NCBI GenBank assembly: GCA_945870035.1
Contig: CAMBQQ010000002.1
Location: 1 to 64,000, forward strand
Direction: 5' to 3'
Length of the DNA stretch: 64,000 nt
DNA from: Rhizobium sp. Q54
GTDB taxonomy: Bacteria; Pseudomonadota; Alphaproteobacteria; Rhizobiales; Xanthobacteraceae
Both the position numbers and the translations under genes were made by a program. The notes beneath the pieces are model-generated. The model had not been told where the DNA came from and searched no databases. It saw nothing but the letters and a program-made list of their open reading frames with translations. Of the stretch, positions 10,518 through 49,984 are shown piece after piece. Every line of letters begins with the position of its first letter. Position 1 is the first letter of the stretch.

Positions 10518-13500
10518 TTACACAACCACGCGGTCGACATCCCGCAGCACGACATAGATGGCCGGGATCACCAGCACGGTTAGCAGCGTCGATGATGCCA
10601 GGCCGAACAGCAGCGAAATCGCCAGGCCCTGAAAGATCGGATCGAGCAAAATCGTCGCAGCACCGATCATGGCCGCCAGTGCGGTCAGAAGAATCGGCTT
10701 GAACCGAACCGCGCCGGCTTCCAGCAGGACGTCGCGCAGCGTCCGCCCCTGCCCCGCCCCATGACGAATGAAATCGACCAGCAGAATCGAGTTGCGCACG
10801 ATGATGCCGGCCAGCGCAATGAATCCGATCATCGACGTCGCGGTAAACGACGCGCCGAACAGCCAGTGCCCCAGCACGATGCCGATCAAGGTGAGCGGGA
10901 TCGGCGTCAGGATGACGAGCGGCAGCAGGAAGCTGCCGAATTGCGCGACGACCAGGATATAGATGCCGACAATCGCCACCATGAAGGCGGCGCCCATGTC
11001 GCGGAAGGTCACATAGGTGATCTCCCACTCGCCGTCCCACAGCATGGCTGGCTTGCTTTCGTCTTCCGGCTGGCCATGAAAGTGAATGACCGGCTTGCCG
11101 AGCGCACCCCAATCGTGCGCCTCGGCAAGCTTGTCCACGTCAAGGATGCCGTAGATCGGCGCCTCGAAAGCGCCAGCCAGTTCAGCCATGACCATGTCGG
11201 CAAAACGCCCGTCGCGCCGGAAGATCGCCGGCGAACCGAGTTCCTTGCTGACGCGCACGATGTCGCCAAGCTCGACCACGGTCTTGTTGCCCGGCACGCT
11301 ATTGGCCGGCACCGGGGTCGACGCCAAGAGTTCGCTCCACGCCAGATCGCGTTTCGGCAGCCGCACCACGATCTCGATGGGGTTGCGGCCCTCACCGCGA
11401 TGCGAATAGCCGACCGTAGCGCCCTTGAACAAGGCTTGCAGCGTGTCATAGACGTCGCGCTGCTCGACGCCGAAGAATTCGAGACGATCCTGATCGATCG
11501 AAATACGCAGCCGCGGCCGCGGCTCGCCGATCGAGTCGTCAATGTCGACGACGTAGGGCACGTCGGCAAAAATCTTCTTCAACTCGGCGGCGACGGCGCG
11601 CCGGTTTTCCGAGCTGGGACCGTACACTTCGGCCAGCAGCGTCGCCATCACTGGCGGGCCCGGCGGCACTTCGACGACCCGGGCGACGGTGCCCGGCGGC
11701 AACGCCACCGGTTTGAGGCGGGCGCGCAGGTCGAGCGCGATCTCGTGACTGCTGCGACTGCGCGCATCGCGCGGCGCCAGGCCGAGATTGAGTTCGCCCA
11801 GTTCCGGCGACGTGCGCGCATAATAGTGACGAACCAGGCCGTTGAAATTGAACGGCGCCGGCGTGCCGGCATAGGTCTCGATGGTGCGAACCTCCGGCAA
11901 TTGCCGGACAATGGCGGCGATCGCGAACAAGGTGCGCTCGGTGTCCTCCACGGTCGCCCCTTCCGGCAGATCGACAACGACGGCCATTTCCGACTTGTTG
12001 TCGAACGGCAGCAACTTCACCGTGACGCTGCGGGTGGCGAACAGCACGCAGACCAGCACAGTCGCCACGCCGACCGCGATCAAAAAGGTCCAGGCCGAGC
12101 GGCGCGTGCGCAGCACAGGCGCGGCCACGCGGCGGTACATCCGGCCGAGGACACCCTCGTCGTGCTCCGCTTTATGCCCGCCGCCTCCGGCGCCACCGCG
12201 ATTGAGGCGCAGCATCAGCCACGGCGCGATGATCATGGCGACAAAGAAAGACAGCAACATCGCCGCCGATGCATTGGCCGGGATCGGCGCCATATAGGGC
12301 CCCATCAGCCCGGAGACGAACAGCATCGGCAGCAACGCCGCCACCACGGTCAAGGTGGCCACGATAGTGGGATTGCCGACTTCGGCCACGGCTTCGATCG
12401 CGGCTTGCTGCCGCGGCCGATCGTCCTTCATGGCCCAGTGCCGCGCAATGTTCTCGATCACGACAATGGCGTCATCCACCAGGATGCCGATCGAGAAAAT
12501 CAAAGCGAACAGGCTGACCCGATTGATCGTGTAGCCCATCAGCTTGGCGGCGAACATCGTGAGCAGAATAGTGGTCGGAATAACGACCAGAGTGACCAGC
12601 GCCTCGCGCCAGCCGATGGCAAATGCGATGAGTACGACAATTGATACGGTCGCGAGGCCAAGGTGAAACAGCAGCTCATTCGCCTTGTCGTTGGCGGTTT
12701 CGCCGTAGTTCCGCGTCACCGTGACTTTAACATCCGCCGGGACCAGATTTCCCTGCACGCTGTGCAACCGCGCCAGCAGTTCTTCCGCGACCACCACCGC
12801 ATTGGCGCCGGCACGCTTGGCGAAGGCAACGCTGACCGCCGGCACGCGATCCCAATGGCCGCCTGCCCCCGGCGTCTCCATCCAGACGCGATGCTCCTGC
12901 GGGCTGGGGCCGACGACGACCGACGCCACGTCACGCACATAGACCGGCCGGTTGTCGCGGGTACCAACCAGCAACAGACCGATGTCGGGAACGCCGGCCA
13001 GAGTCTTGCCGACCGCGACGTCGCGCATCATGGCGCTGTCGCGCACCTGGCCGGACTGGAACGAGCGATTGGCGTCGCGCACCTTGGCGACAAGCTGCTG
13101 CAAGGTGACGCCGAAGAGCGCGAGCTTTTCCGGGTCCGGTTCGACGCGGATCTGCTCGGCATTACCGCCGGAGATATAGGTCAGCCCGATATTGTCCGTC
13201 TTCACCAGTTCGGACCGCAGTTGATCCGACAATTGATAAAGGTCCTTGTCGGTCCAGCGCGCCGCCGCTTCCGGCTTCGGCGACAAAGTCAGCACGACGA
13301 TCGCCACATCGTTGATGCCGCGGCCGACGATCAGCGGATCGGGAATGCCGACCGGGATACTGCCGACATTGGCGCGGATCTTCTCATGCACGCGCACGAT
13401 GGCCTCGTCCGCCTTGGTGCCGACCAGAAAGCGCGCCGTCACCATAACCCGGTCGTCGACCGTCTGGCTGTAGACGTGCTCGACGCCGTCAATGCCTTTG

Positions 13501-13727
13501 ACGATGGCTTCCAGCGGCTTGGTCACCAACTCGACAGCATCCGGCGCCTTGAGCCCATCGGCATTGACGCTGATGTCGACCATCGGCACGCTGATCTGCG
13601 GCTCCTCCTCGCGCGGAATGGTAATCAACGCGATCAAGCCGACCGCAAGTGCCGCCAGCAGGAACAGCGGCGTCAACGGCGAACGGATCGAACTTTGCGT
13701 GAGACGTCCTGACAGGCCGAGATTCAC
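10518..13727 (-). CDS. RND-family efflux pump, inner-membrane permease (AcrB/CzcA-like)
   Basis: This 1069-aa transporter has the RND architecture: one N-terminal membrane helix, a large periplasmic loop, a helix cluster, a second loop and a final helix cluster. The proton-relay Asp pair is intact in helix 4 (GILVDDAIVVIENIARHW). The N-terminal IPREEEPQISVP motif is typical of drug/solute RND pumps rather than Cus/Czc metal pumps, and no Met-rich metal relay is evident. It starts at a GTG whose GTGA overlaps the stop of the adaptor gene, so the pair is translationally coupled. No outer-membrane channel gene is nearby. The operon lies downstream of, and in line with, a BigR-type sulfide-responsive repressor. 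Confidence 0.88.
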   Translation of the reverse strand: MNLGLSGRLTQSSIRSPLTPLFLLAALAVGLIALITIPREEEPQISVPMVDISVNADGLKAPDAVELVTKPLEAIVKGIDGVEHVYSQTVDDRVMVTARFLVGTKADEAIVRVHEKIRANVGSIPVGIPDPLIVGRGINDVAIVVLTLSPKPEAAARWTDKDLYQLSDQLRSELVKTDNIGLTYISGGNAEQIRVEPDPEKLALFGVTLQQLVAKVRDANRSFQSGQVRDSAMMRDVAVGKTLAGVPDIGLLLVGTRDNRPVYVRDVASVVVGPSPQEHRVWMETPGAGGHWDRVPAVSVAFAKRAGANAVVVAEELLARLHSVQGNLVPADVKVTVTRNYGETANDKANELLFHLGLATVSIVVLIAFAIGWREALVTLVVIPTTILLTMFAAKLMGYTINRVSLFALIFSIGILVDDAIVVIENIARHWAMKDDRPRQQAAIEAVAEVGNPTIVATLTVVAALLPMLFVSGLMGPYMAPIPANASAAMLLSFFVAMIIAPWLMLRLNRGGAGGGGHKAEHDEGVLGRMYRRVAAPVLRTRRSAWTFLIAVGVATVLVCVLFATRSVTVKLLPFDNKSEMAVVVDLPEGATVEDTERTLFAIAAIVRQLPEVRTIETYAGTPAPFNFNGLVRHYYARTSPELGELNLGLAPRDARSRSSHEIALDLRARLKPVALPPGTVARVVEVPPGPPVMATLLAEVYGPSSENRRAVAAELKKIFADVPYVVDIDDSIGEPRPRLRISIDQDRLEFFGVEQRDVYDTLQALFKGATVGYSHRGEGRNPIEIVVRLPKRDLAWSELLASTPVPANSVPGNKTVVELGDIVRVSKELGSPAIFRRDGRFADMVMAELAGAFEAPIYGILDVDKLAEAHDWGALGKPVIHFHGQPEDESKPAMLWDGEWEITYVTFRDMGAAFMVAIVGIYILVVAQFGSFLLPLVILTPIPLTLIGIVLGHWLFGASFTATSMIGFIALAGIIVRNSILLVDFIRHGAGQGRTLRDVLLEAGAVRFKPILLTALAAMIGAATILLDPIFQGLAISLLFGLASSTLLTVLVIPAIYVVLRDVDRVVV

Positions 13728-14713
13728 GGCCGCACCAGCACGTCGCCGGCCTTAAGCCCGGACAGGATTTCGAGCGCATCCGGCATATCCGGGCGCGGCT
13801 GCTCGCGGCCGCGCTGCACCGGGACATCGACCGCGGTCTTGGCGTCGGCGCCAACACGGGCGTAGTCGATGCCGAACCTGGTGACGATAAAAGATGCCGG
13901 CACCGTGACGCTCGGCCGTTCGCCGGCGGACACCCAAACCCGAATGCGCTCGCCGACGAAGTAGTCGCCGAGGCCGGCCGCCTCTGCATCCGCGGTGACG
14001 CGGCCATCCTCGATCTGCGGATAGACCAGACGAATGGTGCCGAACTGCGCATTGCTGGCGCCCAGCCCGTCACCGTCGATCCGCACCGTGTCGCCGGCTT
14101 TGAGAAATCTGGCATGCCGCTCCGGCACGCGCAGCCGCAGCACATAATGCTCCTCGGCAATGGTGGCGACGGGCTCGCCCGGCAGAATGACCGTGCCGGC
14201 GGTGACCGGCACCTTCAACACCCGGCCCGCGGCCGGCGCCAGCACCTGACCTTCCGCGAGTTGCTGCTCGACAACCGAGCGCTCGGCGATACGGGCGCGA
14301 TGCGCGTTGGTGGCAACATTGGATGCCGTGCGCGCCTCATCCAAACGGGTCTTCGGAATGGTGCCCTTGGCGAAAAGATCTTCGGCGCGCGCGAGATCCG
14401 ACTGGGACTGCGCCAGTTGCGCGTCCAGTCCGGCGATTTGCGCGTCGAGCGACCGCATCTGCAGCACCAGCTTGTCGTCGCCGACAATGCCGACAACCTG
14501 ACCCTGGGTGACCAGGTCGCCCTCCTTCACCGCCAGTTGCGCCACGGTTCCGCCGATGCGGGCGCGGGCGGGAATGACGTTGCTGCTTTCTACCGTGGCA
14601 AAAACCGCCTTTTCGTCGGCGACCTGCCTCACGGCGACCGTGAACGTTTCGGCTGCGAACACCTGTTGCGCAACCAGCGCCAACAGCGTTGCGACAATAA
14701 TTCTGCCAAGCAT
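13724..14713 (-). CDS. RND efflux periplasmic adaptor (membrane fusion protein)
   Basis: A 329-aa protein with an N-terminal signal sequence (IIVATLLALVAQQVFAAE). A lipoyl/barrel-sandwich half follows (IGGTVAQLAVKEGDLVTQGQ), then an alpha-helical hairpin (about residues 80-135, rich in Ala, Gln and Asp) and the second lipoyl half (LAPAAGRVLKVPVTAGTVILPGE). Beta-barrel and membrane-proximal domains complete it. It bridges the RND pump to an outer-membrane channel. It overlaps the RND gene by 4 bp and begins 83 bp after the bigR-like gene on the same strand, so co-transcription with the repressor is possible. Confidence 0.87.
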   Translation of the reverse strand: MLGRIIVATLLALVAQQVFAAETFTVAVRQVADEKAVFATVESSNVIPARARIGGTVAQLAVKEGDLVTQGQVVGIVGDDKLVLQMRSLDAQIAGLDAQLAQSQSDLARAEDLFAKGTIPKTRLDEARTASNVATNAHRARIAERSVVEQQLAEGQVLAPAAGRVLKVPVTAGTVILPGEPVATIAEEHYVLRLRVPERHARFLKAGDTVRIDGDGLGASNAQFGTIRLVYPQIEDGRVTADAEAAGLGDYFVGERIRVWVSAGERPSVTVPASFIVTRFGIDYARVGADAKTAVDVPVQRGREQPRPDMPDALEILSGLKAGDVLVRP

Positions 14714-14796: not shown

Positions 14797-15174
14797 TTAT
14801 CGGTCGCGGCTCTTGCCCGGCGCGGCGGCGCGGCGCCGCTTGCTCTTTGGGTCGGTCCCGCCGGCGCCCGGGTTGGGTCCGCAATAGACCCGATAGAGCG
14901 TGCTGACCAGCTCCCGCGCCGGCTCGCTGCCGATTGAGTACCAGATCGTCTGCCCGTCGCGGCGGGCGCTGACCAGGCCGTCGCGGCGCAGCAGCGCAAG
15001 ATGCTGCGACACCGTCGAATCGCGCAGCGCCAGAAGTTCGGCAAGCTCGCCGACCGACCGCTCCTTCTCGATCAGCTGACAGACGATGATCAGCCGGTGC
15101 TGGTTGGCGAGCGCCTTCAAGAGAGCACTCGCCGCGTCGGCCGCCGCCTGCATGTCGTCCGCTTTTATTTTCAT
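14797..15174 (-). CDS. ArsR-family persulfide-sensing repressor (BigR/SqrR type)
   Basis: This 125-aa winged-helix protein has the ArsR helix-turn-helix (SVGELAELLALRDSTVSQHLALLRRDGLV). It has just two cysteines, Cys32 and Cys98. Their separation of 66 residues equals that of the reactive pair in SqrR (41/107) and BigR (42/108), which form a tetrasulfide bridge with reactive sulfur species and release DNA. No metal-binding CxC motif of ArsR/SmtB is present. The ORF track adds 20 codons; the ATG at 15174 is preferred because the operator and promoter lie just upstream. It is divergent from DUF2892 and sqr genes, its expected targets. Confidence 0.85.
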   Translation of the reverse strand: MKIKADDMQAAADAASALLKALANQHRLIIVCQLIEKERSVGELAELLALRDSTVSQHLALLRRDGLVSARRDGQTIWYSIGSEPARELVSTLYRVYCGPNPGAGGTDPKSKRRRAAAPGKSRDR

Positions 15175-15176
15175 AC

Positions 15177-15210
15177 TTGCGTAGATACGAATATTCGAAT
15201 ATATAGTCAA
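15177..15210. promoter_or_regulatory. Divergent overlapping promoters with embedded BigR-type operator
   Basis: A perfect 12-bp palindrome, ATATTCGAATAT (15191-15202), sits inside two opposed promoter-like pairs. Rightward, TTGCGT (15177-15182) and TATATA (15200-15205) are 17 bp apart. Leftward, TTGACT (15210-15205) and TATCTA (15187-15182) are also 17 bp apart. A repressor on the palindrome would block both directions. This matches autoregulation plus control of the DUF2892-sqr genes. The leftward start site predicted from this lies next to the repressor ATG, so that transcript may be nearly leaderless. Confidence 0.65.
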
Positions 15211-15306
15211 GGCCGGGGGCAGCTGGCGGACCACAAAGACCGCCGTTTAGTCCCCCAAACGATGAATTCCGAGCCCGGTTGGGCGGGATTGCACAAGGGT
15301 GTTCTC

Positions 15307-15528
15307 ATGACGATCGATCGCGCAGTGCTCGCTCTCGCCGGCAGCATGATACTGCTCAGCGCCGCCATGGCCTGGCTGGTGAGCCCCTATTGGCTGCTGC
15401 TCACGGCCTTTGTCGGCGCCAATCTGCTGCAGTCCGCATTCACCGGCTTCTGCCCGGCGGCGACCGTCTTCCGCAAGCTTGGCCTCAAGCCCGGCGCCGC
15501 CTTCTGTTGCCAGCCGGCCGGGCGCTAG
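15307..15528 (+). CDS. DUF2892-family small membrane protein
   Basis: A 73-aa protein with two membrane helices (LALAGSMILLSAAMAWL and YWLLLTAFVGANLLQSAFT) followed by the family signature GFCPAATVFRKLGLKPG. Such proteins often sit with sulfide-oxidation genes or are fused to rhodanese (as in YgaP), and the conserved Cys is thought to take part in sulfur handling. AAGGGTG lies 6 nt before the ATG at 15307; the track's longer start is not needed. It is the first gene rightward from the BigR-type operator, 136 bp before sqr. Confidence 0.8.
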   Translation: MTIDRAVLALAGSMILLSAAMAWLVSPYWLLLTAFVGANLLQSAFTGFCPAATVFRKLGLKPGAAFCCQPAGR

Positions 15529-15664
15529 CCGTTTCGAGTAATCGGCGCCGCCTGCGATTGAGCAAGATCAAGGCGGCGTGCCGCATCGCTTGGTTGACTG
15601 AATTGTCTGCCGCAAAAATCATAAACAGCCCGCGTCCACGGGCGATCTGCAACAGGAGGAGTCG

Positions 15665-16945
15665 ATGGCTCATATCGTTGTGCTCGGTGGCGGGATCGGC
15701 GGCGTGTCGTGCGCCTACGAACTGAAAGACTCGGTTCGCAAGGACGACCGGGTCACCCTCGTCTCCAACAAGTCCTTCTTTCAGTTCACCCCGTCCAACC
15801 CCTGGGTCGCCGTGAACTGGCGGACCAAGGCCGACATCACCATCGATCTCGGCCAGGTGCTGCAAAAGCACGGCATCGATTTCAACGCCGCCGGCGCGGC
15901 CCATGTTCATCCGGCGGAAAACCGGATCGAACTGACCGACGGAACCTCGATCGCCTATGACTATCTGGTGATCGCAACCGGACCCGAATTGGCTTTCGAT
16001 GAAATCGAGGGCTTCGGACCCCAGCAAAACACCAATTCGATTTGCGACGTCGACCATGCGATGGACGCCAATGGCCGCTGGGAGGATTTCTGCAAGGACC
16101 CGGGGCCCATCGTCGTCGGCGCCGTGCAAGGCGCCTCCTGCTACGGCCCGGCCTACGAATTCGCCATGATCATGGATTCCGATCTGCGCAAGCGGCGCAT
16201 CCGCGACAAGGTGCCGATGACCTTCGTCACCGCCGAGCCCTATATCGGCCATCTCGGCGTCGGCGGCATCGGCGACACCAAGGGCCTGCTTGAATCGGAG
16301 ATGCGTCAACGGCACATCAAATGGATTACCAACGCCAAGGTCGACAAGGTCGAGCCCGGCAAGGTTCACGTCACCGAGGTCGATGACGACGGCAAACCGA
16401 AGAAGGCCCACGAACTGCCGTTCAAATATTCGATGATGCTGCCAGCGTTCCGCGGCATCCCCGCGTTGCGCGGCATCGAGGGCCTGACAAATCCGCGCGG
16501 CTTCGTTATCGTCGACAAACATCAACGCAACCCGAAATTCCCCAACGTGTTCGGCCTTGGCGTATGCATCGCCATCGCCCCGCTCGAACAGACGCCGGTC
16601 CCGGTCGGCGTGCCGAAGACCGGCTTCATGATCGAGTCCATGGTGACGGCGACCGCACTCAATATCGGCAAGCTGCTGCGCGGCGAAACGGCGACGAACG
16701 AGGCGACCTGGAATGCGATCTGCCTCGCCGACTTCGGCGATTCCGGCGTCGCCTTCGTCGCCATGCCGCAGAATCCGCCGCGCAACGTCAACTGGGCGTC
16801 GAGCGGGCGCTGGGTCCACGTCGCCAAGGTGGCGTTCGAGAAATATTTTCTGCACAAGGTCAGAAGCGGCACCACCGAACCCTATTTCGAGAAAGTGGTG
16901 ATGAAGATGCTGGACATCGCCAAGATCAAACGCCCTGCCGCCTAG
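15665..16945 (+). CDS. sqr: Sulfide:quinone oxidoreductase, type I
   Basis: This 426-aa FAD enzyme would oxidise sulfide to polysulfide or sulfane sulfur and reduce membrane quinone from the cytoplasmic face. It opens with the FAD motif VVLGGGIGGVSCAYEL. All three catalytic cysteines of type I SQR are in place: Cys127 (NSICDVDHA), Cys159 (GASCYGPAYEF) and Cys353 (NAICLADFGD), close to Cys128/160/356 of Acidithiobacillus SQR. The C-terminal amphipathic stretch (VHVAKVAFEKYFLHKV) fits membrane attachment. ACAGGAGGAG lies before the ATG. It forms a transcription unit with the DUF2892 gene under the BigR-type operator. Confidence 0.92.
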   Translation: MAHIVVLGGGIGGVSCAYELKDSVRKDDRVTLVSNKSFFQFTPSNPWVAVNWRTKADITIDLGQVLQKHGIDFNAAGAAHVHPAENRIELTDGTSIAYDYLVIATGPELAFDEIEGFGPQQNTNSICDVDHAMDANGRWEDFCKDPGPIVVGAVQGASCYGPAYEFAMIMDSDLRKRRIRDKVPMTFVTAEPYIGHLGVGGIGDTKGLLESEMRQRHIKWITNAKVDKVEPGKVHVTEVDDDGKPKKAHELPFKYSMMLPAFRGIPALRGIEGLTNPRGFVIVDKHQRNPKFPNVFGLGVCIAIAPLEQTPVPVGVPKTGFMIESMVTATALNIGKLLRGETATNEATWNAICLADFGDSGVAFVAMPQNPPRNVNWASSGRWVHVAKVAFEKYFLHKVRSGTTEPYFEKVVMKMLDIAKIKRPAA

Positions 16946-17013
16946 CGGCCGGGCGCTCGGCTATTTTTTGTCGTGAATGCGATTGTCAAATGCCATTGTC
17001 ATTTGCAGCACAT

Positions 17014-19713
17014 TTATGACGCGGCGGCAGAAGCCTTTGCGGTCAGATCCTTCAATGCGCGCAGCAAGGCTGCATCGGCAGCCAGGGGGCTGACCGAAAA
17101 ATCCATATCCTCGGCGATGGCGAGCATTTGAGCCTGATCGGCCGGAAACAGCATAACCGCCTGACGTATGCCTTGCCCGGCGATCACGGAAAACAGGGCG
17201 TTCAACAATTGCTTGGCCAGCCCCTTCTGCCGCAGGTCGCCGCGGATAATGACGGCGGATTCGGAAGCGTCGAGATCCGGATTGGCGAGCGACCGGACCA
17301 GCCCCGCAACGCGCGTGCCTTCCCAGGCGACCAAGGTCATTTCGCGGTCGTAGTCGATCTGGCTAAGGCGCGCCGCCGTTTCGTGGCTGCGATCGCGCAA
17401 TGGCGTAAAAAAGCTGTGCCATAGATCGCGCGTATCGACTTCCTCGGCAAAGCGCCGCAGCGCCGGTTCGTCTTCGGGTTTGATCGGACGCACATCGTAG
17501 GTCTGGCCTTCCGGCGTCTGAATCTTTGACTCAAGCCGCTGCGGATAAGGCCGGATGGCAAGCCGCGATTGCGCCGTTGCCGTGGTGGCACGCAGGCGAA
17601 TTCTGCCGTCCACGCCGATGACGCCTTGGGCGTCGCAGAGCAGCGGATTGATGTCGATCTCGGTCACTTCGGCGTGGTCGGCGACGATCTGACTGAGTTG
17701 AACCAGCACGTTGACGACACCGTCGATATCCGCCGCCGGCCGGTCGCGGTATCCCTTGAGCAGGCCGGCGATACGGGTACGCTCGATCTGGGCGCGAGCC
17801 AAGGTAGTGTTGAGCGGCGGCAGTTCGAGCGATTTATCGCCGATGATCTCGACAGCAGTGCCGCCTTGTCCGAAAAGGATCACCGGGCCGAAAGTCGCAT
17901 CGGTCGAAACGCCGGCAATCAACTCATAGGCGCTCGGCCGCTGGGTCATTTCCTGAACAATGAAGCCTTCAAGCCTCGCCGTCGGTAAGGCACGCGCCAC
18001 CCTCTCATTCATCACCCGCGCGGCGGCTCCGACATCCGCCGGTTCGACGTTGAGCGCAACACCGCCGGAATCTGACTTGTGAATGACATCGCGCGATCTG
18101 ATTTTCAACGCCACCGGCGCACCGATGTCTGCCGCGGCTCTGGCGGCCGCTTGCACATCCGGTACGGCGTGTGTGCGCGTAAATGGAATACCGTAACAGG
18201 CCAGGAACGCGGCGACTTCGGCCGGGTCGAGCCATTCGCGCCCGTCGTCGAGTGCTTGCCGGATAATGCCCTGCGCCCGTTCCGAATCGTTTTCCGGCCT
18301 GGGAGCGCCGGCGGACGGCGTCTCAAGTAGTAAGTCCTGATTTTGCCGGTAGCGCACCAGATACATGAAGGCCCGAACGGCGCGTTCGGGCGTCTCGTAA
18401 TCCGATATCTGCGCCGCGACCAATTGCGCCCGGCCCTCGGCAACCGTCGCCGCGCCCATCCACGACGCAAAGACGTTCTTTGCCGACGCCGGTGCAGAGT
18501 CCGACAAGGCGCCGATCAGGCCTTTGGCGGCATCGGCGGACGAACCGATGGCGGTCGGGCAATAGGCCACCAGCAGCGCATCGTTGTCGGGATCGTTCAT
18601 CAAGATCGATACAGCGGCGGCGTAACGGTCGGCATCGGCATCGCCGATCAGATCGACCGGGTTGGCGTGGCTCCATGTCGCCGGCAGCACGGCGTTGAGC
18701 TTATCGATGATGTCGGGGCTCAACGTCGCCAATCGGCCGCCCTCCTCGATCAGACGATCGGTCGCCAGCACACCGGCACCGCCGCCATTGGTGACGATAG
18801 CCAACCGGTTGCCGCGTTGCGGCGCCATGCGCGCCAGTGTCGCCGCGGCGTCGAACAGTTCCTCGACCTCGTTGACGCGCAGCATCCCAGCGCGGCGGAA
18901 CGCCGCGTCATAGACCACGTCGGCGCCGGCCAGCGCACCGGTATGCGAACTCGCGGCGCGTGCGCCTTCGGCGGCCCGCCCGCTTTTGACGACGATGATC
19001 GGTTTGATGCGCGCGGTGCGGCGCGCCGCCGACATGAACTTGCGTGCCTGTGTGATGCCTTCGGCATACATCAGGATCGCCTGCGTTGCGTCGTCCAGGG
19101 CGAAATAATCGAGCAGATCGCCGAAATCGACATCGTTCATGTCGCCCATCGAGACAATGGCGGAAAAGCCGATGCCGCGCGGCTGCGCCCAATCGAGCAC
19201 CGTCGTCGCCATCGCGCCGGACTGGGTCAGGAACGCTATATTTCCCGGCAGCAGCGCGGACGGGGCGAAAGTCGCATTCAGCCCGATGCCCGGCACCGCA
19301 ATGCCGAGACAATTAGGTCCGACAATACGCAACAGATGCGGGCGCGCGGCGGCAAGCATCTGCGCGGCGCGCGCTTTGCCCGCAGCTGCCTCGCCCTCGG
19401 CAAAGCCGGCGGTGAGAATGACGGCGGCGCGCGTCCCGCGCCGGCCCAGTTCATCGACCAGCGCCGGGATGGTGTCCGGCGGCGTGGCGATGACGGCGAG
19501 ATCGGGCGTCATCGGCAAACTCGCCACATCTTTGTAGGTCACGATGCCATGCAACGCGGCGGCTTTGGGGTTGACCGGCATGATCGGCCCGTCAAAGCCG
19601 CCCGTCATGAGATTTTTCATGAGGGCGGACCCGACCGATTTTGGCCGCGCCGACGCGCCGATAACCGCGATCGAGCGCGGCCTGAACATCTTTTCAAGAT
19701 TGCAAATTGACAT
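17014..19713 (-). CDS. NDP-forming acyl-CoA synthetase fused to a GNAT acetyltransferase domain
   Basis: This 899-aa protein has four parts. Residues about 8-135 form a CoA-binding Rossmann domain (PRSIAVIGASARPKSVGSALMKNL). About 150-460 form succinyl-CoA-ligase-like flavodoxin domains (GPNCLGI; FLTQSGAMATTVLDWA). About 480-715 form an ATP-grasp domain (KIRSRDVIHKSDSGGVALN; EITEIDINPLL-type end). About 725-895 form a GNAT domain (VIRGDLRQKGLAKQLLNALF). It resembles the Pat-type protein acetyltransferases and the ADP-forming acetyl-CoA synthetases. GNAT-fused members often have an inactive synthetase half and acetylate other enzymes; activity cannot be decided here. It is a single gene, divergent from phaC. 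Confidence 0.82.
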   Translation of the reverse strand: MSICNLEKMFRPRSIAVIGASARPKSVGSALMKNLMTGGFDGPIMPVNPKAAALHGIVTYKDVASLPMTPDLAVIATPPDTIPALVDELGRRGTRAAVILTAGFAEGEAAAGKARAAQMLAAARPHLLRIVGPNCLGIAVPGIGLNATFAPSALLPGNIAFLTQSGAMATTVLDWAQPRGIGFSAIVSMGDMNDVDFGDLLDYFALDDATQAILMYAEGITQARKFMSAARRTARIKPIIVVKSGRAAEGARAASSHTGALAGADVVYDAAFRRAGMLRVNEVEELFDAAATLARMAPQRGNRLAIVTNGGGAGVLATDRLIEEGGRLATLSPDIIDKLNAVLPATWSHANPVDLIGDADADRYAAAVSILMNDPDNDALLVAYCPTAIGSSADAAKGLIGALSDSAPASAKNVFASWMGAATVAEGRAQLVAAQISDYETPERAVRAFMYLVRYRQNQDLLLETPSAGAPRPENDSERAQGIIRQALDDGREWLDPAEVAAFLACYGIPFTRTHAVPDVQAAARAAADIGAPVALKIRSRDVIHKSDSGGVALNVEPADVGAAARVMNERVARALPTARLEGFIVQEMTQRPSAYELIAGVSTDATFGPVILFGQGGTAVEIIGDKSLELPPLNTTLARAQIERTRIAGLLKGYRDRPAADIDGVVNVLVQLSQIVADHAEVTEIDINPLLCDAQGVIGVDGRIRLRATTATAQSRLAIRPYPQRLESKIQTPEGQTYDVRPIKPEDEPALRRFAEEVDTRDLWHSFFTPLRDRSHETAARLSQIDYDREMTLVAWEGTRVAGLVRSLANPDLDASESAVIIRGDLRQKGLAKQLLNALFSVIAGQGIRQAVMLFPADQAQMLAIAEDMDFSVSPLAADAALLRALKDLTAKASAAAS

Positions 19714-20160
19714 ACCGTTGTCCCGAAAGCGCGCCCGGATTTAAAGACAAAATAAACGCAACGACAAAATCCCTGCGCACTGCGGAATTACTCGGACGGT
19801 TACGATACGATCGCCGAAAGGCATAACGATGTAATGAATTGGAGCGCACCGATAAAGCTATATTAAAGCGAAGGCCGACGAATTGATTTTGCTCAATTGC
19901 CGGCGGCACGCGCCCGGGCATACTGGCTCTACGAGCCGCTCGATGACGGAAATATGAAAGTCGCTGCTAGCTGGTTCGGCGATTGCGATCTTCATGACGG
20001 CGGCGTTATTTGTGACGTTTCGATGAATGATTTAGCTCAATAATAATGTTTTTCGGACGTGCAAATAATTGAAAGGGCATGGTGAAACCGGGTTTCTAAT
20101 TCAGCACCATACGACATGCCCCGTGCAAAACGATTGATCCCGTGCCGCGCAGGAAACAGC
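19714..20160. other. Intergenic region between acyl-CoA synthetase and phaC
   Basis: About 450 bp, AT-rich at both ends, presumably containing the two divergent promoters. A plus-strand reading frame from a TTG at 19897 to a TAA at 20041 encodes 48 residues (including YWLYEPLDDGNMKVAASWF). It looks more protein-like than its surroundings but has no clear ribosome site and is not recognised. It may be a remnant C-terminus. Nothing else is supported. Confidence 0.4.
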
Positions 20161-41759: not shown

Positions 41760-43279
41760 TACACGATCTCCATCGGGTTCTTCGCGCGTTTCGGCGAACC
41801 GAACAGGTTGGTCTCGGTCGCGCCGGTGGCGCAGCCATTGCCGAACGAGAAGCCGCAGGAGCCGCGCAGTTCGAGCGCGTCTTCGGTGGTTTCGCGATGC
41901 GACGTCGGAATGACGAAGCGATCCTCGTAATTGGCAATCGCCATGTATTTGTACATGTCTTCGATCGCCGCGCCGGTGAGGCCGACACGCTGCGCGATCT
42001 TCTCGTCGATCAGCCCATCGACGGTCTTCGCCCGCATATAGGCGCGCATGGCAAGCATGCGTTCCAGGCCGAGCGCGACCGGCTCTTCTTTGCCCGCCGT
42101 GAGCATGTTGGCGAGATATTTGAGCGGAATGCGCAAAGACCGCACATCCGGCATCTCGCCGTCGTGGCCGATCTTGCCAGCGGCGGCCGCCGACTGAATC
42201 GGCGACAGCGGCGGCACATACCAGACCATCGGCAGCGTGCGGTATTCCGGATGCAGCGGGAACGCGACCTTCCATTCCATCGCCATTTTGTAGACCGGCG
42301 AGCGGCGCGCGCCCTCCAGCCAATTCTCGGCAATGCCGTCACGCCGCGCCTGTTCGATGATGGCCGGATCGTGCGGGTTAAGGAATACGCCGAGCTGGGC
42401 TTCGTAGAGGTCCTGCTCGTCCGGCGTTGAGGCGGCTTCCTCGATGCGGTCGGCGTCGTAGAGCACGACGCCGAGATAGCGGATACGGCCAACGCAGGTT
42501 TCCGAGCACACCGTCGGCTGGCCGGCTTCAATGCGCGGATAACAGAAGATGCACTTCTCGGATTTGCCGGTCGACCAGTTGTAGTAAATCTTCTTGTACG
42601 GACAGCCGGACACGCACATGCGCCAGCCGCGGCACTTGTCCTGGTCGATCAGGACGATGCCGTCTTCCTCACGCTTGTAGATGGCGCCCGACGGACAGGC
42701 GGCGACGCAGGTCGGGTTGAGGCAGTGCTCGCACAGCCGCGGCAGATACATCATGAAGGTGTTTTCGAACTGGCCGTACATTTCCTTCTGCACGCCCTCG
42801 AAATTGTAGTCTTTCGAGCGCTTGGCGAATTCGCCGCCGAGGATTTCCTCCCAGTTCGGGCCCCACTCGATCTTTTCCATGCGTTCGCCGGAAATCAGCG
42901 AGCGCGGCCGCGCGGTCGGCATCGCCGTCATTTCCGGCGACTTCTGCAGATGCTCGTAGTCGAAGGTGAAGGGCTCGTAATAGTCGTCGATTTCCGGCAG
43001 GTCGGGATTTGCAAAGATATTGGCGAGTACGCGCCACTTCGAACCGATGCGCGGCTCGATCTTGCCGTTTTTCTTGCGTACCCAGCCGCCGTTCCAGCGC
43101 TTCTGGTTTTCCCAATCCTTCGGATAGCCGATGCCGGGCTTGGTTTCGACGTTGTTGAACCAAGCGTATTCCATGCCCTCGCGGCTGGTCCAGACGTTCT
43201 TGCAGGTAACCGAGCAGGTGTGGCAACCGATGCACTTATCGAGATTGAGCACCATCGCGATTTGAGCGCGGATCTTCAT
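41759..43279 (-). CDS. narH: Respiratory nitrate reductase beta subunit (iron-sulfur)
   Basis: A 506-aa electron-transfer subunit carrying four FeS clusters between NarI hemes and NarG. Cluster-binding runs are CIGCHTCSVTC near residue 16, CEHCLNPTCVAACP, then CRGWRMCVSGCP and CIFCYPRIEAGQPTVCSETC. The Trp in CRGWRMC marks the [3Fe-4S] cluster, as in E. coli NarH. The ATG at 43279 starts MKIRAQIAMVLNLDKC; the ORF track is longer. It overlaps narG by 4 bp. Confidence 0.95.
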   Translation of the reverse strand: MKIRAQIAMVLNLDKCIGCHTCSVTCKNVWTSREGMEYAWFNNVETKPGIGYPKDWENQKRWNGGWVRKKNGKIEPRIGSKWRVLANIFANPDLPEIDDYYEPFTFDYEHLQKSPEMTAMPTARPRSLISGERMEKIEWGPNWEEILGGEFAKRSKDYNFEGVQKEMYGQFENTFMMYLPRLCEHCLNPTCVAACPSGAIYKREEDGIVLIDQDKCRGWRMCVSGCPYKKIYYNWSTGKSEKCIFCYPRIEAGQPTVCSETCVGRIRYLGVVLYDADRIEEAASTPDEQDLYEAQLGVFLNPHDPAIIEQARRDGIAENWLEGARRSPVYKMAMEWKVAFPLHPEYRTLPMVWYVPPLSPIQSAAAAGKIGHDGEMPDVRSLRIPLKYLANMLTAGKEEPVALGLERMLAMRAYMRAKTVDGLIDEKIAQRVGLTGAAIEDMYKYMAIANYEDRFVIPTSHRETTEDALELRGSCGFSFGNGCATGATETNLFGSPKRAKNPMEIV

Positions 43280-46200
43280 TCTGCGGCCTCCAAAGTGTTC
43301 GTAGTGTTGGTCGCGACGGGCAAAGCTTCGGGTTGATCGGGAGTGGGCGTATCGAGCCAGTCGACTTTCGACATCTTGCGCACGATGACGAATTCGTCGC
43401 GGTTCGATCCGACGGTACCGTAGTAGTTGAAGCCGTAGGATTGCTGGGCGTAACCGCCGATCATGTGGGTCGGCTTGAGGATCGCGCGGGTCACCGAGTT
43501 GTGGATGCCACCGCGCTGGCCGGTCTGCTCGGAGCCCGGCACGTTCACGATCTTCTCCTGCGCATGATACATCATGCACATGCCCTGCTTGACCCGTTGC
43601 GAGACGACTGCGCGCGCCACCAAAGCGCCGTTGCTATTGAACGCCTCGATCCAGTCATTGTCGACGATGCCGGCCTGCTTGGCATCGATCTCGCTGATCC
43701 AGACGCAAGGACCGCCACGCGACAGAGTGAGCATCAGCAGGTTGTCGGTATAGGTCGAGTGGATGCCCCACTTTTGATGCGGCGTGATGAAGTTCAGCAC
43801 CACCGCGTCATTGCCGTTCGGCTTGCGGTCGATCACCGGGTTAACCGATTTGGTGTCGATCGGCGGACGATAGACGCAGAAGCCTTCGCCGAAGGCGCGC
43901 ATCCACAGATGATCCTGATAAAGCTGCTGACGGCCGGTCAGCGTGCGCCACGGGATCAGCTCGTGGACGTTGGTATAGCCGGCGTTGTAGCAGACCTTTT
44001 CCGACTCAAGGCCGGACCAGATCGGTGAAGAGATAATCTTGCGCGGTTGCGCGACGACGTCGCGGAAGCGGATCTTCTCGTCTTCTTTCGGAATGGCGAG
44101 ATGGGTGTGATCTAGGCCGGTGAAGCCGCCGAGCGATGCCCATGCCTTGACCGCGACCTCGCCGTTGGTTTCCGGCGCCAGGCTGAGAATGACCTCGCAG
44201 GCGTCGATGTCGCTGTCGATGCGGGCAAAGCCTTTGGTCGTCCCCTCCTCCAGCACGACACCGTTGAGTTGCTTCAGGAAGTCAACCTCGTGCTCGGTAT
44301 TCCACGCCATGCCCTTGCCGCCATTGCCGAGCTTGGCCATCAGCGGTCCGAGCGAGGTGAAGCGCTTGTAAAGACCGGGATAGTCACGCTCGACCACCGT
44401 CACAGCCGGCATGGTCTTGCCGGGGATCGGATCGATCTCGCCTTTCTTCCAGTCCTTGACGTCGAAGGCCTGCGCGATTTCGCCGGGCGTGTCGTGCATG
44501 ATCGGGGTCAGCACCACATCCTTTTCAACACCGAGCACTTCCGGCGCGACTGTGGAGAAAGCCTTGGCAATGCCCTTGTAGATCTCCCAGTCGCTGCGCG
44601 CTTCCCACACCGGATCGACCGCCGCGGTGAGCGGATGGATGAACGGGTGCATGTCCGAGGTGTTGAGATCGTTCTTCTCGTACCAGCTCGCAGTCGGCAA
44701 CACGATGTCGGAGTACATACAAGTGGTCGACATACGGAAGTCGAGCGTGACCAGCAGGTCAAGTTTTCCTTCCGGCGCTTTCTCGTGCCAGACAACATCC
44801 ATCGGCTTTTTCTTGCCGTCTTCGCCGAGATCCTTGCCCATGACGCCATGCTTAGTGCCGAGCAGGTGCTTGAGGAAGTACTCATGACCCTTGCCCGAGG
44901 CGCCGAGCAGGTTGGAGCGCCAGATGAACATGTTGCGCGGCCAGTTGGCCGGGTTGTCCGGATCGTCGCAGGACAGATTGAGCTTGCCCGACTTCAGGTT
45001 GGCGGCGACATAGTCCTTGGCTTCCATGCCGGCGGCGGCGGCGTCTTTCGAGACCTGCAGTGGATTGGTCTGCAATTGCGGCGCTGACGGCAGCCAACCC
45101 ATGCGCTCGGCGCGCACGTTGTAGTCGATCAACGCTCCGTCCCAGGGCCCTGCCGGCGCGGTCGGCGACAGCACTTCCGACACGTCGAGCGTTTCGTAGC
45201 GCCATTGATCGGTGTGCGCGTAGAACGCCGAGGTCGAGTTCATCTGCCGCGGCGGACGGCCCCAGTCGAGGCCGAAGGCGAGCGGTAGCCAGCCCGATTG
45301 CGGACGCAGCTTTTCCTGGCCGACATAATGCGACCAGCCGCCGCCGGACTGTCCGACGCAACCGCACATCACCAGCATGTTGATGATGCCGCGGTAGTTC
45401 ATGTCCATGTGGTACCAGTGGTTCAGACCGGCGCCGACAATCACCATGGACCGGCCCTTGGTCTTCTCGGCATTGAGCGCGAATTCGCGTGCCGTGGTGA
45501 TAATCTGGTCACGCGGCACACCGGTGATCTTTTCCGCCCAGGCCGGCGTATAGGGCTGCATGTCGTCGTAACCCTTGGCGAGATGCTCGCCGCCGAGGCC
45601 GCAATCGACGCCGTAATTGGCGACGAACAGGTCGTAGACCGAGGCAACGATCGTTTCGCCTTCAACCAGTTGCAACGTCTTGGTCGGCACGTTGCGCACC
45701 AGCACGCTCGGATGATCGGTGCCCTGGAAGTGATCGTGCTCGCGATTGCCGAAATACGGGAAGCCAACGGCGGCAATACCGTCCTTCACGTCATTGAGCG
45801 ACAGGCGAAGTTTCGTCTCTTTTCCGTCGGAAGCCTGCTCCTGGAGATTCCACTTGCCCTTTTCGCCCCAGCGGAAGCCGACCGAGCCCTTTGGCACGAC
45901 GACGGCACCGGTAGTCTCGTCGAACGCGACCGTCTTCCATTCCGGATTATTGGATTCATCACAGCCTTTGACGAAGTCGGAGGCGCGCAGGAAGCGCTCA
46001 GGCACATAATGCTCGCCCTGCTTCACCAGCCGTACCAGCATCGGCATGTCGGTATATTGCCGGGCATAGTCCTGGAAGTACTTGGCCTGCCGGTCGATAT
46101 GGAATTCGCGAAGGATGACGTGGCCCATGGCCATACCGAGCGCGGCATCGGTGCCCTGCTTCGGCGACATCCACAGATCGGCGAATTTCGACGCTTCCGA

Positions 46201-47052
46201 ATAGTCCGGGCAGATGACGACACTCTTGGCGCCGCGATAACGGGCCTCGGTATAGAAGTGTGCGTCGGGCGTGCGCGTTTGCGGTACGTTTGAGCCCCAC
46301 AGCAGCAAGAAGCCGGAATTGTACCAGTCGGCCGATTCCGGCACGTCGGTCTGCTCGCCCCAGGTCTGCGGCGACGCCGGCGGCAAATCGCAATACCAGT
46401 CGTAGAACGACATGCAGACACCGCCGAGCAGCGACAGGTAGCGCGAGCCGGCGGCATAACTCACCATCGACATTGCCGGGATCGGCGAGAAGCCGAACAC
46501 GCGGTCCGGGCCATGCGTCTTGACAGTGTAAGCATTGGCCGCGGCGATCAACTCGTTGACCTCGTCCCAGGTCGAACGGACAAAACCGCCAAGGCCTCGC
46601 TTCTCGACATAGGCCGAGCGTTTTGCCGGGTTTTCGACGATCGATTTCCAGGCGGCAACCGGCGTCATCAGGACGCGCGCTTCGCGCCACAGCTTGAGCA
46701 GCCGCGAACGCACCAACGGATACTTCACGCGGTTGCCGGAATAGAGATACCAGCTATAGCTCGCGCCGCGCGCGCAGCCGCGCGGCTCATGATTCGGCAG
46801 ATCCGGCCGCGTGCGCGGATAATCGGTCTGCTGGGTTTCCCAGGTAACGATGCCGCCCTTGACGTAGATCTTCCACGAGCAAGAGCCTGTGCAGTTCACA
46901 CCGTGCGTAGAGCGCACGATCTTGTCGTGCTGCCAGCGCTTGCGGTAGCCGTCTTCCCAGCGCCGGTCTTCATTGGTGGTGATGCCGTGACCGTCCGAGA
47001 ACGGTTCGCTGCCGCGGCTGAAGAAAGTCAATCGGTCGAGAAAGTGACTCAT
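43276..47052 (-). CDS. narG: Respiratory nitrate reductase alpha subunit (molybdopterin)
   Basis: A 1258-aa catalytic subunit, of usual NarG length, reducing nitrate to nitrite in the cytoplasm with bis-MGD molybdenum. The N-terminal FeS (FS0) site uses His in STHGVNCTGSC plus Cys residues there and a later Cys (EPRGCARGASYSW). The molybdenum Asp region reads WGSNVPQTRTPDAHF. The initial segment contains a degenerate RR (NEDRRWEDGY), which in NarG is a vestigial Tat signal and not cleaved. It lies 11 bp after narK and overlaps narH by 4 bp. Confidence 0.96.
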   Translation of the reverse strand: MSHFLDRLTFFSRGSEPFSDGHGITTNEDRRWEDGYRKRWQHDKIVRSTHGVNCTGSCSWKIYVKGGIVTWETQQTDYPRTRPDLPNHEPRGCARGASYSWYLYSGNRVKYPLVRSRLLKLWREARVLMTPVAAWKSIVENPAKRSAYVEKRGLGGFVRSTWDEVNELIAAANAYTVKTHGPDRVFGFSPIPAMSMVSYAAGSRYLSLLGGVCMSFYDWYCDLPPASPQTWGEQTDVPESADWYNSGFLLLWGSNVPQTRTPDAHFYTEARYRGAKSVVICPDYSEASKFADLWMSPKQGTDAALGMAMGHVILREFHIDRQAKYFQDYARQYTDMPMLVRLVKQGEHYVPERFLRASDFVKGCDESNNPEWKTVAFDETTGAVVVPKGSVGFRWGEKGKWNLQEQASDGKETKLRLSLNDVKDGIAAVGFPYFGNREHDHFQGTDHPSVLVRNVPTKTLQLVEGETIVASVYDLFVANYGVDCGLGGEHLAKGYDDMQPYTPAWAEKITGVPRDQIITTAREFALNAEKTKGRSMVIVGAGLNHWYHMDMNYRGIINMLVMCGCVGQSGGGWSHYVGQEKLRPQSGWLPLAFGLDWGRPPRQMNSTSAFYAHTDQWRYETLDVSEVLSPTAPAGPWDGALIDYNVRAERMGWLPSAPQLQTNPLQVSKDAAAAGMEAKDYVAANLKSGKLNLSCDDPDNPANWPRNMFIWRSNLLGASGKGHEYFLKHLLGTKHGVMGKDLGEDGKKKPMDVVWHEKAPEGKLDLLVTLDFRMSTTCMYSDIVLPTASWYEKNDLNTSDMHPFIHPLTAAVDPVWEARSDWEIYKGIAKAFSTVAPEVLGVEKDVVLTPIMHDTPGEIAQAFDVKDWKKGEIDPIPGKTMPAVTVVERDYPGLYKRFTSLGPLMAKLGNGGKGMAWNTEHEVDFLKQLNGVVLEEGTTKGFARIDSDIDACEVILSLAPETNGEVAVKAWASLGGFTGLDHTHLAIPKEDEKIRFRDVVAQPRKIISSPIWSGLESEKVCYNAGYTNVHELIPWRTLTGRQQLYQDHLWMRAFGEGFCVYRPPIDTKSVNPVIDRKPNGNDAVVLNFITPHQKWGIHSTYTDNLLMLTLSRGGPCVWISEIDAKQAGIVDNDWIEAFNSNGALVARAVVSQRVKQGMCMMYHAQEKIVNVPGSEQTGQRGGIHNSVTRAILKPTHMIGGYAQQSYGFNYYGTVGSNRDEFVIVRKMSKVDWLDTPTPDQPEALPVATNTTNTLEAAE

Positions 47053-47063
47053 GTGATTTTCCC

Positions 47064-49805
47064 TTATTCAGCCGGTTGCAGGGTGGCGGGCGGCAGCGAA
47101 CCGCCACGCTCGATGTCGCGCAGCAGGCCGCCGCGGCGGGTGTAGAACCACCAGGTGATGGCGACACAGGTGACGTAGAAACCCATGAAGCCCCACAACG
47201 CCATCTCCGGTCCGCCGGTCAGCGAGATCGAGGTGCCGTAGCTCTTCGGGATGAAGAAGGCGCCATAAGCCGCGACCGCGGAGGTAAATCCGATGATCGC
47301 CGCCGATTCCATTTCGGCCTGCTTCTGGCGAACGTCGATGCTCATGCCCGGCTCAAGCCGGATGAGTTCCGCGCGCATGATTGCCGGGATCATCTGGAAG
47401 GTCGATGCGTTGCCGACGCCGGTAGCGAAGAACAACAGCATGAACATCGCGAAGAATCCCCAGAACGCGTTCGGCTGATCCTTGATGCCAAGGAAGTACA
47501 GCACGCCGCCGACCGCCGCGATCATCAGCGTGAAAACCCAGAAAGTGACGCGGCCGCCGCCGTAGCGATCCGACAACCAGCCGGTCGCCGAGCGCGACAG
47601 CGCGCCGACCAGCGGCCCGAGGAAGATGAACTTCAGCGAGTCGACCTGCGGGAACATGGTCTTGGCGAGCAGCGGGAAGCCCGCCGAATAGCCGATGAAC
47701 GAGCCGAAGGTGCCGGTATAGAGCCAGCACATCAGCCAGTTATGCTTGCGCTTGAAGATCACCGCCTGATCGGCGAACGAGGCGCGCATGTCGGCGATGT
47801 CGTTCATGCCGAACCAGGCCGCCGTGGCCGAGATGGCGATGAACGGCACCCAGATGAAGCCGGCATTCTGCAGCCAGAGCTTGGTACCGTCTTTCGCCAC
47901 CTGCGGCTCGCCGCCAAGCCAGCCAAACACGCCGGCAACGATGACCAGCGGGATAACGAATTGCACGACGCTGACGCCGAGATTGCCGAGGCCGGCGTTG
48001 AGCGCCAACGCGTTGCCCTTCTCCGCCTTGCGGAAGAAAAAGCTGATGTTCGCCATCGACGAGGCGAAGTTGCCGCCGCCGAAGCCGCACAGCAAGGCCA
48101 GCGCCAGGAAGAAGATGTAAGGCGTATCCGGGCTCTGCACCGCAAGCCCGATGCCGACCGCCGGGATCATCAGCGACCAGGTCGAAATCGATGTCCACAG
48201 CCGGCCGCCGAAGATCGGCGGCATGAAGGAATAGAAGATGCGCAAGGTCGCGCCGGACAGGCCGGGTATGGCCGCGAGCCAGAACAGCTGATCGGTCGAG
48301 AATGTGAAGCCGACCGCCGGCAGCTTGGCGACGACCACCGACCACACCATCCAGACCGCGAAGGCGAGCAGCAGCGCCGGTATCGAAATCCACAAATTGC
48401 GGCGCGCAATGGCGCGTCCCTTGCTCTCCCAGAAAGCCGGATCTTCCGGTTTCCATTCGTCCAGGACATGACCGGAGAGCGCGCCGATGTGCTTGCCCTC
48501 GTGAATCGGCCCCATTTCCGGGAACTGCGGCAGCATGCTCAGGGCCGGCTCGTAGGCCTCGCGCTCCATGCGGCGAATAGCGAAATGCATCCAGGCCAAT
48601 GAAACGGCGGCGATCAGGAACAACAGCATGAAGCAGCTGGTCCAAATGCCGGTGAGATCGTTGAGCACGCCGAAGACGATCGGCAGGATGAAACCGCCGA
48701 GGCCGCCGATCATGCCGACCAGGCCGCCGACCGCGCCAACGTTCTTCGGGTAATAGACCGGGATGTGCTTGTAGACCGCGGCTTTTCCTAAGCTCATGAA
48801 GAAGCCAAGCACGAAGATCAGCGCCGTGAAGGTGACGACGCCGGTCGCCATATGGAAAGTGATCGGGCCCTTGATGCCTTCGACCGTGTAGGTGGTCGGC
48901 GGATAAGCCAAGATGAAGGTGACCAGCACCGAGACGCCAAACATCCAGTACATGATGCGGCGGGCGCCGTATTTGTCCGACAAGTGACCGCCATAGGCGC
49001 GGAACAGGCTGGCCGGAACCGAATAGGCGGCGCCGATCATGCCCGCGGTCGTGATGCTGAGCCCATAGACGCCGATCAGATAGCGCGGCAACCACAGCGC
49101 CAACGCGACGAAGGCGCCGAAAGCGAAGAAGTAATAGAGCGAGAAGCGCCAGACCTGGACGTTCTTGAGCGCATCGAGTTCGAGCCACGCGCTGACCGGG
49201 CGGGCGCCTTTGGCGCGGCGCGCCATCTCGACCGGGTCTTCCTTGGTGGTGAACCAGAAGACGATGCCCATCAGCGCGATGGCGACGGCCCAGACCTGCG
49301 CGGTGACCTGCCAGCCATAAGCCACCATCACAAACGGTGCGATGAACTTGGTCACCGCCGCACCGACATTGCCGGCACCGAAGATACCGAGCGCGGTACC
49401 CTGCCTTTCCGGCGGATACCAACGCGAGACGTAAGCGATGCCGACCGCGAAGGAGCCGCCGGCAATACCGACGCCGAGCGCGGCAATCAGAAACTCTGTG
49501 TAAGTTTGCGCATATGTCAGCAGGAAGGTGGCCAGCGCGGCCGCCAGCATGACCACAGTGTAGACGCGGCGGCCGCCATATTGATCGGTCCAAATGCCGA
49601 GGAAGATGCGTACCAGCGAACCGGTAAGAATGGGGGTACCGACTAACAGGCCAAACTGCGTTTCATTCAGCCCCAAATCCTTCTTGATCTGAATGCCGAT
49701 GATGGCGAACAGCGTCCACACCGCGAAGCAGACGGTGAAGGCAATAGTGGACATCCAAAGCGCACGGCCTTGGCCTTCAATACTAGAAATAGATTCTGAT
49801 TGCAT
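47064..49805 (-). CDS. narK: Fused double nitrate/nitrite transporter NarK1-NarK2 type
   Basis: A 913-aa inner-membrane protein made of two complete 12-helix MFS units. The first (residues about 20-420) has RIFLGIWTDQYGGRRVYTVVM and GIAGGSFAVGIAYVSRWYP; the second (about 490-900) has LSGATLRIFYSFMPPIFGGR and GFGGGNFASSMANISFFF. The Arg in each helix 2 that binds nitrate is kept. In such fusions one half is thought to import nitrate with protons and the other to exchange nitrate for nitrite. The start at 49805 has AGGA upstream. It is the first gene of the nar unit, 123 nt downstream of the predicted transcription start. Confidence 0.93.
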   Translation of the reverse strand: MQSESISSIEGQGRALWMSTIAFTVCFAVWTLFAIIGIQIKKDLGLNETQFGLLVGTPILTGSLVRIFLGIWTDQYGGRRVYTVVMLAAALATFLLTYAQTYTEFLIAALGVGIAGGSFAVGIAYVSRWYPPERQGTALGIFGAGNVGAAVTKFIAPFVMVAYGWQVTAQVWAVAIALMGIVFWFTTKEDPVEMARRAKGARPVSAWLELDALKNVQVWRFSLYYFFAFGAFVALALWLPRYLIGVYGLSITTAGMIGAAYSVPASLFRAYGGHLSDKYGARRIMYWMFGVSVLVTFILAYPPTTYTVEGIKGPITFHMATGVVTFTALIFVLGFFMSLGKAAVYKHIPVYYPKNVGAVGGLVGMIGGLGGFILPIVFGVLNDLTGIWTSCFMLLFLIAAVSLAWMHFAIRRMEREAYEPALSMLPQFPEMGPIHEGKHIGALSGHVLDEWKPEDPAFWESKGRAIARRNLWISIPALLLAFAVWMVWSVVVAKLPAVGFTFSTDQLFWLAAIPGLSGATLRIFYSFMPPIFGGRLWTSISTWSLMIPAVGIGLAVQSPDTPYIFFLALALLCGFGGGNFASSMANISFFFRKAEKGNALALNAGLGNLGVSVVQFVIPLVIVAGVFGWLGGEPQVAKDGTKLWLQNAGFIWVPFIAISATAAWFGMNDIADMRASFADQAVIFKRKHNWLMCWLYTGTFGSFIGYSAGFPLLAKTMFPQVDSLKFIFLGPLVGALSRSATGWLSDRYGGGRVTFWVFTLMIAAVGGVLYFLGIKDQPNAFWGFFAMFMLLFFATGVGNASTFQMIPAIMRAELIRLEPGMSIDVRQKQAEMESAAIIGFTSAVAAYGAFFIPKSYGTSISLTGGPEMALWGFMGFYVTCVAITWWFYTRRGGLLRDIERGGSLPPATLQPAE

Positions 49806-49934
49806 GGCGCCCGTCCTGTCAGCCCAAAAGAATGGTCGCATGACAAGACTTGGTCGGCCGCCCGGAAGCTTTGACCTCGATCAACAGACGTCAATAATCA
49901 GTACAAATAAAGTTCGCGCGCCTAGCGCAACTGT

Positions 49935-49976
49935 CTTATATCGACTCAGACCTCGCCATGAATTGATATCGATCAA
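49935..49976 (-). promoter_or_regulatory. FNR-type class II promoter of the narK-narGHJI operon
   Basis: On the minus strand a TTGAT-N4-ATCAA box (49963-49976, TTGATATCGATCAA) is followed by TATAAG at 49940-49935. If the -10 is -12 to -7, the start falls at 49928 and the box centre at exactly -41.5, the textbook position for FNR-type activation. The leader to narK is about 122 nt. Confidence 0.8.
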
Positions 49977-49984
49977 GATCGTGC

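Follow-up and report, generated by a model that had tools for sequence, protein, structure and literature searches.

A persulfide-responsive divergon is the probable function of a short intergenic region in the window, by which we mean the whole 64,000-nucleotide stretch of Rhizobium sp. Q54 DNA analyzed here. One repressor dimer at 15182-15203 would control both a repressor-RND pump side and a DUF2892(-SQR) side. The genes, the cysteines, the conserved dyad, the promoter geometry, the constant -10-to-ATG distance and the FNR/FixK box on which this reading is built are present in the sequence. The genes and the box lie as follows:

10518 to 13727, minus strand: RND permease (ACR_tran; Pfam E 5e-138), with a 4-nt overlap with the adaptor gene
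13724 to 14713, minus strand: RND periplasmic adaptor (HlyD_3/RND_mfp), starting 83 nt after the repressor
14797 to 15174, minus strand: dithiol ArsR-family repressor of the SqrR/BigR/YgaV/HlyU type, by homology and C32/C98
15307 to 15528, plus strand: YgaP-like_TM/DUF2892 transmembrane protein of 73 aa (PF11127, E 4e-13)
15558 to 15571, plus strand: FNR/FixK-type box TTGAGCAAGATCAA, between DUF2892 and SQR
15665 to 16945, plus strand: type I sulfide:quinone oxidoreductase (SQR), with C127/C159/C353

The repressor carries an ArsR winged-helix domain (PF01022, E 3e-12) and matches the SqrR chain with an E value of 1e-21. Its only cysteines are C32 and C98, 66 residues apart. When it is aligned with Rhodobacter capsulatus SqrR, 46 of 97 residues are identical and both cysteines align with the SqrR sensing cysteines, bearing out the original prediction of a BigR/SqrR-like repressor with this Cys-Cys spacing. 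C32 is found in all 82 distinct relatives and C98 in 81 of the 82, the remaining one having a gap. Its assignment as a putative dithiol repressor of the persulfide type is thus supported. The protein is nonetheless a relative of BigR and not BigR itself. Against the NCBIfam equivalog for BigR sensu stricto (NF040642) it scores 88.7 bits, below the curated cut-off of 155, and it is therefore the two cysteines and the neighboring genes that point to the ligand. Paralogues of the repressor were observed in locus L127. At 15866-17168, one (46% identical) is divergent from a metallo-beta-lactamase-fold gene, with a variant operator TATATTAG-N6-CTAATTTA at 16781-16802, between the two genes or at their edge, and the pair resembles a BigR-type dioxygenase switch; a second (1981-2259, 57% identical) lies beside a TetR-family gene.

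The window comes from an alphaproteobacterium of Xanthobacteraceae type. Genome contigs were scanned for the repressor, which gave 80 loci, the closest named ones being from Pseudolabrys. The full set, with DUF2892 and SQR divergent from repressor, adaptor and RND permease, is present in 54 of the 80 loci, in agreement with the predicted divergence of SQR/DUF2892 from the repressor. SQR neighbors the repressor in 55 loci, and in 19 it was not found beside the repressor while DUF2892 and the pump are present. In 76 of the 80, the repressor is followed by the adaptor. Given the full sets and the 19 loci that have DUF2892 and pump without SQR, the RND pump, which the earlier reading had omitted from the repressor side, is the most constant neighbor of the repressor. 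It comprises an ACR_tran permease, with relatives of the MexB/CmeB/MdtB type, and a HlyD-type adaptor. No terminator-like site was found between repressor and adaptor on the repressor strand of the window, and the repressor transcript very probably includes the pump genes (14713-10518). The pump substrate is probably a sulfur compound or a sulfide-derived toxicant, and the arrangement would give an orphan RND pump a link to sulfide stress. In an Afipia MAG (L080:4453-4896), the divergent slot is occupied by an apparent thioredoxin gene, judged by eye, and DUF2892, not by SQR.

RND pumps usually export toxicants, which favors the alternative that the repressor senses another ligand, such as a metal, an organotin or an oxidant, and that the pump exports that compound. 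Likewise, a title cited in PMC12423496 presents the homologous ygaVP operon, in its first description, as inducible by tributyltin. We consider this alternative quite unlikely, given the two sensing cysteines at the SqrR positions and the frequency with which SQR adjoins the repressor. The match to A. ferrooxidans SQR (E 1.5e-151) spans the whole SQR protein and aligns all three catalytic cysteines, and C127, C159 and C353 are present in 66 of 66 relatives, confirming the type I SQR that had been predicted along with the DUF2892 protein. C49 of the latter is invariant in 73 of 73 relatives.

We next turn to the DNA between the two gene sets, in which two candidate operators had to be told apart:

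15182 to 15203, no strand: predicted operator, an interrupted inverted repeat TATATwCG-N6-CGwATATA, with arms kept across relatives
15191 to 15202, no strand: palindrome ATATTCGAATAT, exact here, made up of the operator right arm and most of the variable spacer

The copy of the operator in the window, TAGATACG-AATATT-CGAATATA, is 22 bp long with its axis at 15192.5. The comparison covered 73 loci after removal of near-duplicates, 65 of which have the exact canonical layout, and the aligned upstream regions of the relatives read TTGACTATATATTCG-N6-CGTATATACGCAAgT and then ATG. Among the dereplicated loci, most arm positions carry approximately 1.4-2.0 bits, positions -24 (0.85) and -22 (1.06) being weaker; unlike the arms, the N6 spacer is variable, with 0.36-0.92 bits per position. 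The arms lie partly outside the -35 and -10 hexamers. Arm symmetry is 0.806 at axis 15192.5, the best of all axes scored, versus 0.231 at the palindrome axis, 15196.5.

The original prediction had taken ATATTCGAATAT for the operator. The palindrome is indeed perfect, with one exact copy in the window, and its perfection speaks for it. However, it is exact in only 5 of the 73 dereplicated relatives, half of it is variable spacer that happens to read AATATT here, and at its axis 2-4 of the 6 pairs are broken in most canonical loci. These comparative data rule the palindrome out as the operator, save for a very remote chance, in favor of the interrupted 22-bp dyad centered 4 bp away. A perfect palindrome chosen by eye can sit displaced from the real operator.

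In the 4.1-Mb genome to which the window belongs, there is one operator site with at most 1 mismatch, at the repressor, and the next best site has 3. No further site with fewer than 3 mismatches was found in a regulon search of this genome, and we therefore propose no wider regulon. A search that began from the DNA (at most 1 mismatch, 44 genomes of the window's genus) returned 16 non-overlapping places, 13 of which are at this repressor gene. The predicted operator switch, short as it is, is widely conserved. The published SqrR motif, ATTC-N8-GAAT, has also been seen where YgaV footprints on its promoter (PMC9774250). At the canonical place, ATwCG-N6-CGwAT fits this motif, and the window reads ATAC-N8-GAAT; the strict form occurs in only 4 of 73 relatives because one base is often A.

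Four hexamers lie around and within the predicted operator:

15205 to 15210, minus strand: -35 of the repressor/RND promoter, TTGACT (TTGAC in 71 of 74 canonical loci)
15182 to 15187, minus strand: -10 of the repressor/RND promoter, TATCTA (TATATA in 56 of 74 relatives), with the +1 predicted near 15174, on the A of the ATG
15177 to 15182, plus strand: -35 of the DUF2892/SQR-side promoter, TTGCGT (TTGCGT in 63 of 74 loci)
15200 to 15205, plus strand: -10 of the DUF2892/SQR-side promoter, TATATA (TATATA in 43 of 74 and TATATC in 14 of 74), with the predicted +1 at about 15213

They form two fully interleaved, divergent promoters, each with a spacer of 17 bp. In the window alone, the left promoter (TTGACT/TATCTA) matches the consensus at 8 of 12 positions and the right promoter (TTGCGT/TATATA) at 7 of 12, the left -10 and the right -35 being weak, and a simple consensus promoter scan of the window called neither. 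The claim of two opposed promoters with 17-bp spacers therefore needed comparison: the promoter-like elements exist in the window, and they are credible as promoters only because all four hexamers are conserved in the 74 canonical loci. The placement of an operator inside both promoters is also supported, with the 22-bp dyad in the place of ATATTCGAATAT. The left -10 lies wholly within this dyad and the right -10 partly, and a bound dimer would therefore block both. From their geometry, the two interleaved promoters would also be mutually exclusive. Loss of the right promoter where the divergent gene is missing was considered as well and set aside, since L057 (-35 CTGCGT, -10 TATGCA) is the one clear case, which is too few.

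The -10-to-ATG distance on the repressor side is 7 nt in all 65 canonical loci, and none of the 65 has a Shine-Dalgarno-like tetramer upstream of the repressor ATG. These observations support the predicted leftward start beside the ATG, and with it a near-leaderless repressor mRNA whose predicted +1 coincides with the AUG or lies about one base from it. In B. japonicum, leaderless transcripts occur commonly, and 192 transcription start sites lie exactly at start codons (PMC4842269). If translation began instead at M8, which is invariant in 82 of 82 repressor relatives, the message would have a 21-nt leader and would not be leaderless. We disfavor this start and give it only a small chance, as 62 of the 65 canonical loci lack a Shine-Dalgarno sequence before M8 and only 3 have one; the two ATGs are invariably seven codons apart, with no indels; the second position of codons 2-4 changes little; and an internal Met of longer homologues such as HlyU and SqrR aligns with M8. 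At the upstream start, AAA is used for 58 of the 70 Lys residues at codon 2, versus 15% in the genes of the same loci, and ATA for 46 of the 52 Ile residues at codon 3, versus 2%. Since these rare codons are in excess, it appears that the bases, and not the amino acids, are maintained at the repressor start.

The start codon is itself covered by an operator-like sequence:

15166 to 15187, no strand: possible second, overlapping operator (unproven), TATCTACG-CAAGTA-TGAAAATA

This second dyad has 3 mismatches in the window and at most 2 in 39 of 77 loci. In a subgroup of loci (L011-L015), the repressor start codon is further downstream than in the others, and a second dyad with 0-3 mismatches stands where other loci have the start codon, giving two overlapping dyads 16 bp apart. 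This allows, without proof, an operator over the AUG. Tentatively, then, the same DNA might serve in four roles, supplying the -10 of one promoter and the -35 of its opposite, a pair of overlapping operators and the start codon of a leaderless repressor message; repression would become cooperative through a second dimer over the AUG, and ATG AAA ATA would be kept for DNA binding and not for the protein. We regard this as possible but somewhat doubtful. The excess of AAA and ATA at codons 2 and 3 and the dyad of L011-L015 are consistent with it, and A-rich starts favored by leaderless initiation account for the AAA/ATA codons equally well.

For the single-operator divergon, we infer DNA binding, a persulfide signal, leaderless translation and co-transcription, and propose the following mechanism. 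The reduced repressor dimer would bind TATATwCG-N6-CGwATATA, covering the -10 boxes of both promoters, and would block RNA polymerase toward repressor-adaptor-permease and toward DUF2892(-SQR). Sulfide would give rise to persulfides, a sulfur bridge would then link C32 and C98, and the bridged dimer would leave the DNA, so that both sides are expressed, with the repressor's own expression, from its near-leaderless message, closing the loop. In SqrR, a tetrasulfide between the two cysteines releases DNA (PMC9995734), and by this analogy persulfides would be expected to derepress both sides.

In the genus of the window, the SQR would additionally be under its own FNR/FixK-box promoter, tied to low oxygen. 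The box, with at most 2 mismatches of 10, is present in 9 of 9 loci that share the gene order of the window, and 0 of 1000 shuffles were as good; a scan of the window also found a promoter-like element at 15594-15622, upstream of SQR. Because this box is conserved before SQR, the SQR in this genus probably responds to low oxygen in addition to the repressor, or even more strongly than to it, and the original proposal that one dimer could silence both sides applies to the shared promoter region and is unlikely to describe the whole control of SQR. Carried further, the repressor might mainly govern itself, DUF2892 and the RND pump, with SQR mostly FNR/FixK-driven in this genus and the shared operator not its main switch. 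The box, the promoter-like element and the 19 relatives that retain DUF2892 and the pump without SQR point that way. We judge this rather unlikely, since SQR is the first divergent gene, adjoining the operator, in most other SQR-bearing relatives (47 loci), and no terminator-like site was found on the plus strand of the DUF2892-SQR gap. Other boxes of this type were observed in the window, which has 7 TTGA-N6-TCAA boxes versus 0.57 expected. Beyond the SQR-side box, five further ones cluster at 49871-52703, between an MFS/narG-like operon (43276-49841) and two Crp/FNR-type regulator genes (50063-50749 and 50855-51592), and an FNR/FixK-type box, TTGATTTTGCTCAA, lies at 19883-19896, between a CoA-ligase/acetyltransferase gene and an ORF starting at 20116.

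Links between SQR and RND pumps, and between RND pumps and such repressors, have been published in outline. In the part of PMC5358917 that bears on this, Azospira suillum Dsui_3440-3443 links SQR to an RND pump in a single operon, with no regulator described there, versus the divergent arrangement here, and a survey lists RND efflux pumps among the likely targets of sulfane-sulfur ArsR repressors (PMC12423496); unlike the present analysis, the relevant portion of that survey does not describe an operator, the promoter geometry or a leaderless start. Our literature search found no published description of the operator position, the interleaved promoters or the leaderless repressor. In bacterial bidirectional promoters, -10 elements are shared and transcription start sites are typically 10, 18 or 23 bp apart (PMC12825309). 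The promoters described here resemble these in that two polymerases compete there for one pseudo-symmetric site, and resemble acrR/acrAB in the repressor divergent from an RND pump (PMC12825309). They differ from the shared -10 class in having separate -10 boxes (15182-15187 and 15200-15205), each abutting the -35 of the opposite promoter, and predicted start sites approximately 39 bp apart. As in E. coli ygaVP, the repressor adjoins a YgaP-like transmembrane domain protein, and YgaV binds over its own promoter; unlike here, ygaVP is a co-directional operon without an RND pump, as named in PMC9774250. A close parallel is with SqrR of Rhodobacter capsulatus, with which H. denitrificans SoxR/sHdrR, X. 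fastidiosa BigR, E. coli YgaV and V. cholerae HlyU are grouped, and which shares the ArsR fold, two cysteines 66 residues apart, an operator of the ATTC-N8-GAAT type and an SQR target. Unlike SqrR, the present repressor has a single divergent operator and an RND pump downstream, and it is apparently local, with one genomic site, whereas 45% of sulfide-responsive genes are under SqrR repression (PMC9995734). The parts are of known kinds, and the compact one-operator wiring with a seemingly leaderless repressor message looks undescribed. It is a small natural system in which two interleaved promoters, a seemingly leaderless regulator and a single repressor come together, and it provides a testable, precise 22-bp candidate operator for a widespread, uncharacterized branch of putative persulfide-sensing repressors in Rhizobiales.
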